Source: Phorcus lineatus
Taxonomy: Eukaryota; Mollusca; Gastropoda; Trochida; Trochidae
DNA length: 64,000 bases
Assembly (NCBI GenBank): GCA_921293015.1
Contig: OV121081.1
Location: forward strand, 930,001 to 994,000
Reading direction: 5' to 3'
The notes below the pieces were generated by a model. The model was not told where the DNA came from, searched no databases, and was given only the letters and a program-made list of their open reading frames with translations. A program made the position numbers and the translations under genes. Shown piece by piece: positions 674 through 3,700 of this stretch. Each line of letters starts with the position of its first letter. The stretch's first letter is position 1.

Positions 674-764
674 ACCGAAAGTATTTCTCCAGCCGGTTAT
701 TTTTGTCGGTGCGAGCGTGACCCACCCACCAGCGGGAGACCGAATGCGCCCCTCCATTGCTGCA
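674..764 (+). CDS. AGO2: Argonaute alternative exon A (GASVTHPP, catalytic Asp replaced by Ser)
   Basis: This is a 91-bp exon bounded by a TTTTGCAG acceptor (ending at 673) and a GTAAGT donor (765-770). Its first base completes a codon and it ends on a full codon, so it joins in frame to the exon at 2387. It encodes [16 protein letters not shown] followed by RMRPSIAA. In human AGO2 the matching motif is GADVTHPP, whose Asp (D597) is a metal-binding slicer residue. Here that position is Ser. The open frame, intact splice sites and conserved surroundings argue against a dead copy. A protein made with this exon should bind guides but is predicted not to slice. Confidence 0.88.
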
Positions 765-3700
765 GTAAGTCTAACGACTTGCCTGCTTGTAAAGATATCA
801 GAACCACCTCGCATCTCGTCCCCATGCACACACAAGGACTTAAACACATCTCAAGTGATTTGACTTTGTACGAACTTTTGACCTCGATTTTTGGATTCGC
901 ATAGGTCACCATTCTGGACCAAGAAAATTTTGAGTCAAAGTATTCAGGATATTCATTTCGGATGTTACGCAAATTTCCTATTTCAGCAAAAGCTAAGATT
1001 GGTGATTGTCCTGACCTCGAGACGAGAGAAGGTCCATGTAGTGGCTTGGTCTGGATGCGAGGCTGGGTCTGGACTTCAGTAGAATGCATATATAAGTTTC
1101 TTTATTTTCAGCCCGAGCGTCTTTCGGGAACCTATCATATTCCTGGGTGCTGATGTAACGCACCCGCCCGCAGGAGATTGTTCCAAACCTTCCATAGCAG
1201 CAGTAAGTTGTCTGTAGTCTAGGCAGTAAGCCAGTCCTGTGTAGTCAGTCCGTCCATCTATCTAATCGGTGTGTCGCTAACACTCTCCACTCGCTTGTGT
1301 GTATATGATCTTATTCATTAAAAATCTTAGTCATCTCAAATATATATATATGACAAAGCCAAATCTTTGGACTCATAGGTTGATTTACTAAAACCTTGAG
1401 AAAAATTCATCGATTTCTATAGAACAGACAGTCTTGCCAACATAACTTTTCACTTTCAAAATAAGATTTCCATCTTATTTCTAGAAAAAATATTCGGTTT
1501 GTTTAAATATTGATGAGTAAAATTCCATTGGAAGTGAAAATTGACAAAAGTCCTTGCATGTGTTAGATAAGTTTGCAAATGATTCAAGATTCTGCTAATT
1601 TGGTCTTACATAAATATTTTGACATAATGAATCATCTTGTTGGAAGTCATAACTCCAAATAATTTACTATCTTTGGGTTAATTTTTCTGCAAATTTGTCC
1701 TTTCTTATTCATAAACAGAAACCGTTGTCCGGTGTTATGAAACCTGTCAGTTGTACAGTTGTTATGTCTTTAGGATAAATTTTAAGATTTTACTTCTTCT
1801 GATGTAGGTTGTAGCCTCATCTATACTTCCGACTTATCTGTACGTTCTCATAATAAAGCTTGTGATACTCAGCAAAGCTTATGAAACACAACTTAACAAA
1901 TATTGCTTGTGATTAGTGTCCTCCTTTTAGTGATTTAGTTTCACATGCAAAATACCCTTAACAAAAATAGTTTAGGAAAATATTGAAATTATAAATAATC
2001 ATAATCTCTTCACTGACCACAAGATAATATCCCTTACTTATTTTGTCCAGTTTATATTCCTCACATAAAATTTAGACTTATTTGTCACTTAGGTAAGAAT
2101 AGGATAATACAACTTTATCTTACATATTCAGTATTTGTATTTGTTTTAGGAACATCAAAAATTGATGTGTAGACAAATTTGTTTACTTATCATCTCGAAG
2201 TAGTCAAAAACCATTTGGATACATTTAGAAGTTTGAGTAGAATGATAACAGTAGTAGTGTATAAGCCCCGAATTGGTCAGATACGGCAAAAATGACACGC
2301 TAATTAGGTGACCCAGGAACCACACACAATGGTGACGATGAATAAGCATGTTTGTTATGCTCTGAGAAGACAAATTTTGTGTTCAGGTAGTAGGGAGCCA
2401 AGATGCCCACCCAAGTCGGTACTCGGCGGCGGTGAGGGTCCAGCAGCACAGGCAGGAGATCATCCAGGAGCTGCCCACAATGGTGAAGGACCTCCTCATC
2501 CAGTTCTACCGCTCCACGCGCTTCAAGCCAACCAGGATCGTCTTCTACAGAGACGGCGTCAGTGAGGGCCAGTTCCAACAGGTCTGTGTCTTTAGAACTT
2601 ACTTTTCACCCTCAAAATTTCAAGGTCCACAAACACACTATATAAAGTCAGGTCATTTTTCAATAACAAAGTATTTCGCAAATACAAATTCTCAAAATGA
2701 AATAACATCTGTTTTCAATCAATCCAAGGTATATTCCACAAAAACAGGTGAAAAAAGTGAAAATTGTCTGGTAGTTGTAAAATGTTTCAACTTATCTATT
2801 TGCAGAATAATCAATGACCACACACATCAAAAGGTCGAAACTAAGTATCATCTCTTGGATATGTTCTGTTTTGTTTGTCAAGATTCCAAACCACAAAACT
2901 TGGTACAGACTCCCAATATATATGTTGCTTACATGTCCAGGTTCTGAGCCATGAGCTGCGGGCTGTACGAGAAGCGTGTATGAAGCTGGAGGTGGGCTAT
3001 CAGCCGGGGATCACGTTCATCGTGGTACAGAAGCGTCACCACACCAGACTCTTCTGTGCTGACAGGAAGGACCAGACAGGTCGTAGTGGCAACATTCCCG
3101 CCGGTACGACCGTTGACGTGGGCATCACTCACCCCACTGAGTTTGACTTCTACTTGTGTAGTCACGCTGGTATTCAGGTGAGGAGTGCAGAAATGTGTGC
3201 CTTAAAATTTAGAACCAATTTCTTTTTTTTATTTACATTCAGTCTACTATGAGGGATTATCATGAGTGAGCAGCTTTTTTGCCTACTTAAGATTCAATGG
3301 TTAGATGTTAATATAAAAGCTAGTGTATCAGTTTAACCTTTTTTTTATTAAAAGAAAAAGCAAGAATGTTATCTTTTAGCAAATATCAAATTGAAATATC
3401 TATGTTGCAAATGAATATAACATTTTGGTTTGTATACTAACAATGTAATCAAGCAAGTGATAATCAAGTTTTAAAGGTTTCTTGTATTTTCTCTGTTGAC
3501 TGCTATAAAAAATAAAAAAACTTGTCTCCCTCAGGGTACAAGTCGACCGTCCCACTACCACGTGCTGTGGGATGACAACCACTTCACGGCCGACGAGCTG
3601 CAGATTCTCACCTACCAGTTGTGCCACACGTACGTGCGCTGTACACGCAGCGTCTCCATCCCAGCCCCTGCCTACTATGCACATCTTGTGGCCTTCCGCG

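Follow-up and report, generated by a model that had tools for sequence, protein, structure and literature searches.

Duplicated alternative PIWI exons in an Argonaute gene of Phorcus lineatus are predicted to offer a choice between slicing and non-slicing proteins

The window analyzed here is a 64,000-nucleotide stretch of the Phorcus lineatus genome (C1:930001-994000, from a 958-Mb assembly of 74 contigs). An AGO-clade Argonaute gene on the plus strand starts upstream of the window, and its 3′ portion fills the first 4.1 kb. Exons of this gene were mapped by tblastn with human AGO sequence and by inspection of splice sites. Those inside the window are two alternative PIWI exons, exon A (674..764) and exon B (1112..1202), separated by a 347-nt intron (765..1111); three PIWI exons common to both forms (2387..2581, 2941..3177, and 3535..3734); and a final coding exon (4024..4132) that ends MYFA-stop. 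When two isoforms of the product, each without its N-terminal part, were compared with Pfam, the ArgoL1, PAZ, ArgoL2, Mid, and Piwi domains were all found above cut-off and in order; these isoforms carried exon B with L2a and exon A with L2b, L2a and L2b being a second exon pair described below. The gene product was nearer to AGO than to PIWI proteins, with E values of 1e-167 to 1e-184 for human AGO1-4 and 1.6e-36 for the best PIWI protein. A second comparison, with a cut-off of 1e-100, matched a single plant AGO besides human AGO1-4 but no PIWI protein.

Exons A and B are consecutive and 91 nt long, at the positions given by the first-pass annotation. The first base of each belongs to a codon split across the intron, which the final CG of the upstream exon (last base C1:929767) completes; each exon encodes 30 residues and ends on a codon boundary. 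As had been claimed, the two share the same phases and identical donors (both GCA followed by gtaagt). Splice sites were scored against the constitutive sites of the same gene, and the acceptors, described earlier as good, fell within the range of those sites (B ranked 8th and A 10th of 19 scored), while the donors tied for 5th and 6th of 17 scored. The polypyrimidine tract is poorer in A (0.47 pyrimidine, versus 0.71 in B). The annotation also held that including both exons or neither would break the frame, and in silico joining, with NN in place of the first two bases of the split codon, gave early stops in both cases: A joined to B ran into a stop 13 codons into exon B, and the joint that used neither exon met two stops at once. 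With A alone or B alone, the frame was open through the exon at 2387-2581.

The two exons were said to encode the same PIWI segment, and they are indeed homologous, with 55 of 91 bases and 21 of 30 residues identical; given this residue identity and the tblastn match between them (E = 5e-12 within the 94-kb region searched), their similarity is not due to chance. A and B agree in length, GT-AG splice sites, phase, and homology, and neither has an in-frame stop, the traits by which published work defines homologous mutually exclusive exons (PMC3228551). These features can occur in other exons: among 16,180 exons of the fly X chromosome, Pillmann et al. count 90 (0.56%) that share length, frame, and homology although annotated as constitutive or differentially included (PMC3228551). 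At the level of sequence, the reading of A and B as a mutually exclusive pair, of which exactly one would be used per transcript, is supported.

The residues that the exons do not share include a catalytic one. In an ungapped alignment, exon B has an aspartate (codon GAT, 1152-1154) at the position of human AGO2 D597, the first residue of the DEDH slicing tetrad, whereas exon A has a serine (codon AGC, 714-716), and the two codons differ at all three bases. The other tetrad residues lie in exons common to both forms, with E637 (codon at 2456) and D669 (codon at 2552) in the exon at 2387-2581 and H807 (codon 3682-3684) in the exon at 3535-3734. The exon B form thus has D597, E637, D669, and H807, a full tetrad, and the exon A form has S-E-D-H. 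The first-pass annotation was right that both exons are open and conserved at most positions of the motif, but it omitted that the catalytic Asp is replaced by Ser in 674-764. Both human rows displayed in the alignment, AGO1 and AGO2, have Asp at this position. In human AGO2, D597 chelates the Mg ion (PMC10772731). The first three positions of the tetrad count as universal among Argonautes, though long-B pAgos have diverged there (PMC12477606). In worms, ALG-1 and ALG-2 were made slicing-inactive through this same first Asp, by changing DEDH to AEDH (PMC9882359). Exon A would give a naturally occurring SEDH protein, predicted to be unable to cut, and exon choice is predicted to pick between a slicer-competent and a slicer-dead Argonaute. 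Such a switch need not matter much, since worms without ALG-1/2 slicing develop normally; slicing in these miRNA Argonautes aids star-strand removal only modestly (PMC9882359).

The pattern of differences between A and B points to long purifying selection on the pair, in keeping with the earlier suggestion that selection keeps both exons. Different codons are used for 14 of the 21 identical residues, and of the 30 codons compared, 7 differ at the first position, 5 at the second, and 23 at the third. A pairwise codon model rejected omega = 1 (2dlnL = 29.0, p = 7e-8); omega itself is not given for this pair because silent sites were saturated and the fitted distance ran off. In simulations (4000 runs), the share of unconstrained copies that remained open with at most nine residue changes was 85% at 0.1 substitutions per site, 4.9% at 0.3, and 0.05% at 0.5. 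A recent loss of constraint on exon A may have occurred, as this is compatible with the pairwise tests and with the simulation at 0.1 substitutions per site. The exons are nearly equidistant from human AGO2 (7 of 30 residues for A and 6 for B) and from human AGO1 (9 of 30 and 8 of 30). A alone differs at three positions where B equals human AGO2 (L594V, D597S, and K608R), and B alone differs at Q589E and V591I, where A equals human AGO2. With distances this close and so few A-only changes, A is not clearly the faster-changing copy, and its striking change is that at the catalytic Asp position. No blastn similarity was found among the six introns beside duplicated exons, so that the A-B intron resembles none of the other five, which fits an old duplication. 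In prokaryote and viral collections, pattern matches numbered 53, 5, 84, and 82, none of them a relative by tblastn.

The gene has a second duplicated pair, in linker L2. The earlier account of one duplicated pair stands for A and B but missed this one, which lies upstream of the window and ends 3.1 kb upstream of exon A. Exons L2a (L009:6949-7071 = C1:926949-927071) and L2b (L009:7460-7582 = C1:927460-927582) are both on the plus strand, 123 nt long, and of phase 0/0, and 26 of their 41 residues are identical. They correspond to human AGO2 383-423, numbering being taken from the AGO2 span with AGO1 as the displayed alignment row; an assignment to the helix-7 segment was dropped, as the pair begins at residue 383. 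The position of human S387 is occupied by Asp in L2a and by Asn in L2b. When Akt3 phosphorylates Ser387 in the human protein, target cleavage falls and translational repression rises (PMC9262622). Since 123 is a multiple of three, the frame does not enforce exclusivity in this pair. Omega was 0.10, and omega = 1 was rejected (p = 1e-6); as in A/B, the protein is kept while silent changes are many. L2b is somewhat farther from human AGO1 than L2a (21 versus 18 of 41 residues) and has more changes of its own (5 versus 2), and the Pfam ArgoL2 score was slightly higher for the isoform with L2b (54.5 versus 51.4 bits).

No further duplicated exons stood out when the 21 mapped exon segments, a set to which the unmapped 5′-end exons do not belong, were compared with the region. 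Seven other weak tblastn hits near the gene (E values of 0.02 to 0.5) included C1:900173 and C1:915276, which were considered as an upstream AGO copy and, when read in frame, looked like chance fragments. The 2.5-kb intron one exon before the L2 pair contains a 26-bp minisatellite of about 13 copies, with a 103-bp higher-order unit (L009:3883-4219). Well-kept minisatellites (92 to 98% matches) are also present elsewhere in the window, at 27099-27575, 43718-43893, 44667-44988, 46672-46956, and 58976-59433, with units of 45, 25, 19, 28, and 89 bp, in that order.

A search of the whole assembly with the AGO PIWI region, in its exon B form, recovered seven exons of this gene, namely A, B, and the five common ones. 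The search otherwise returned five weak matches (E values of 1e-5 to 0.9) at three loci on C2 and C15. These three other Piwi-domain loci (C2:39.52M, C15:22.66M, and C15:26.68M) are read as PIWI-clade from their weak similarity, and one of them has the sequence GIDVYHD, which we take to be a PIWI-type motif. Neither a second AGO-clade gene nor a retrocopy, which would have proved splicing, was detected among the best candidates scored in this whole-assembly search. With just this one AGO-clade gene detected, splicing would be the only way to obtain both a slicing and a non-slicing AGO. Molluscs are reported to produce miRNAs and piRNAs, to lack siRNAs, and to have either one AGO or two (PMC12479628), and an earlier survey lists one AGO in the mussel and Lottia and two in the oyster and Aplysia (PMC4793324). 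The assembly also contains two haemocyanin loci with eight matched units each (16 of 16 scored), at C12:7646582-7661095 (minus strand) and C12:16557773-16572398 (plus strand), that is, on opposite strands of one contig and about 9 Mb apart. One haemocyanin fragment, compared with solved structures, matched haemocyanins including keyhole-limpet KLH1. The Pfam haemocyanin family matched here is molluscan, in keeping with a mollusc source.

We propose that the only AGO-clade gene detected probably makes at least two proteins through mutually exclusive duplicated PIWI exons, a slicing one with exon B and a non-slicing one with exon A. With its D-E-D-H tetrad, the exon B form should cut well-paired targets. 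In the exon A form, a carboxylate needed to hold the catalytic metal would be gone; this form should bind guides and repress, but not cut. Both exons would be spliced in, in separate transcripts, and transcripts that include both or neither would be removed by nonsense-mediated decay. In our preferred reading, B would thus mark the cutting form and A a form committed to repression, in a ratio presumably set by tissue or stage.

As to how one exon might be chosen, competition between B, which has the better acceptor, and A would be the simplest working model. Docking/selector RNA pairing is one known mechanism of exclusivity, though not an obligatory one. For A/B, a low-power comparison of ungapped pairing with 12 shuffles found no such intron pairing beyond the shuffles. 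In five of six intron-intron comparisons, at the same low power, the best complementarity was matched by 6 to 11 of the 12 shuffles; in the sixth, the L2a-L2b intron paired with the intron downstream slightly better than any of the 12 (29.2 versus 28.8). Splicing-factor-like motifs, counted without a control, occur in at most one copy each per intron in the six flanking introns. Steric exclusion needs shorter introns than those between the paired exons, which are 347 nt (A/B) and 388 nt (L2 pair) and have ordinary GT-AG sites, and we think it unlikely for that reason.

If the L2 pair is combined freely with A and B, up to four isoforms would come from one gene. Both exon-pair sites bear on cutting versus repression in human AGO2. 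More tentatively, the gene could be a splice-programmed silencing effector: with either Asp or Ser at 597 and either Asp or Asn at 387, it would yield up to four Argonautes, and splicing would take the role that gene duplicates and phosphorylation have in vertebrates.

Other explanations place the function of exon A elsewhere or deny it one. Exon A could serve mainly as a poison exon, with the stop that arises 13 codons into B when both exons are included lowering AGO through nonsense-mediated decay and the exon A protein being irrelevant. Both sets of splice sites look usable, as this would require; however, a poison exon needs no conserved protein, and A still shares 21 of 30 residues with B, 14 of which are written with a different codon, and has an exact frame to 2387. 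We regard this role as quite improbable. Exon A might instead be a decaying relic that has lost its Asp and sees little or no use. The very residue one would expect to persist is gone, and the acceptor of A scores below that of B, but the frame of A is open, its donor equals that of B, its distance to human AGO2 is nearly the same (7 versus 6 of 30), and the D and S codons, which differ at all three bases, speak against a single recent hit or a sequencing error as the cause. A relic therefore seems unlikely to us.

Both isoforms could also be made with the swap tuning folding, guide loading, or partner binding, and the loss of cutting would then be a tolerated side effect. This would accord with the modest effects of removing slicing from worm ALG-1/2 (PMC9882359) and with the presence of L594V and K608R in A. 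Only three changes, however, are confined to A where B equals human AGO2, and one of these is the catalytic Asp, so we give tuning a low probability as well. That the pair arose as an assembly artefact or from two haplotypes placed in tandem is a general possibility that nothing at this locus favors, and it is extremely improbable: only 55 of 91 exon bases are identical, the introns are without similarity, and exon A has a single match in the 958-Mb assembly.

The arrangement has several partial counterparts. The coq-2 exons 6a and 6e of helminths, annelids, and molluscs are, like A and B, homologous exons of equal length that is not a multiple of three (134 nt in Caenorhabditis elegans) and that remodel an enzyme core, and similar exons are reported in molluscs; the coq-2 switch alters quinone substrate choice and has been seen in RNA, whereas in the AGO pair, read from genomic sequence, one exon lacks a catalytic residue (PMC7434440). 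One survey lists nine events in which mutually exclusive exons fall at catalytic sites, such as fly CG42249, where exon choice alters catalytic residues as it would here; the text available from that survey names no Argonaute among them (PMC7954323). Shrimp Ago1A/B/C likewise come from one animal AGO gene, as PIWI-domain isoforms that probably arise by alternative splicing. They differ by the presence or absence of an 81-nt PIWI fragment rather than by a swap of homologous exons, and by a 9-nt fragment near the 5′ end, and the text available mentions no change in the tetrad (PMC3510085). In the slug Deroceras laeve, AGO2a and AGO2b also comprise a predicted slicer and an AGO with a tetrad point mutation, but these are two genes that differ mainly in the N terminus, and the changed residue is unnamed in the accessible text (PMC12506671). 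Human AGO1-4 form a comparable set of active (AGO2 and AGO3) and inactive (AGO1 and AGO4) proteins, from separate genes rather than from alternative exons of one gene (PMC9262622).

Homologous mutually exclusive exons are thus already known, and as far as we have read, an Argonaute with duplicated alternative catalytic exons has not been described. This agrees with the earlier statement that no described case is known in animal Argonautes: none appeared among the full-text literature matches listed, a scope outside which subscription papers, supplements, and database gene models lie. Isoforms of the AGO exon pair may already be present, unremarked, in automatic annotation, and surveys that keep the longest isoform per gene (PMC11114477) would miss such a pair.

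If the preferred reading of B as the cutting and A as the repressing form is true, nature would here offer a slicing and a non-slicing Argonaute for comparison within a single gene. It is not obvious why animal miRNA Argonautes keep slicing, given that slicing-dead ALG-1/2 worms develop normally (PMC9882359). Because the two versions lie in separate exons, this question would become testable by isoform-specific removal.
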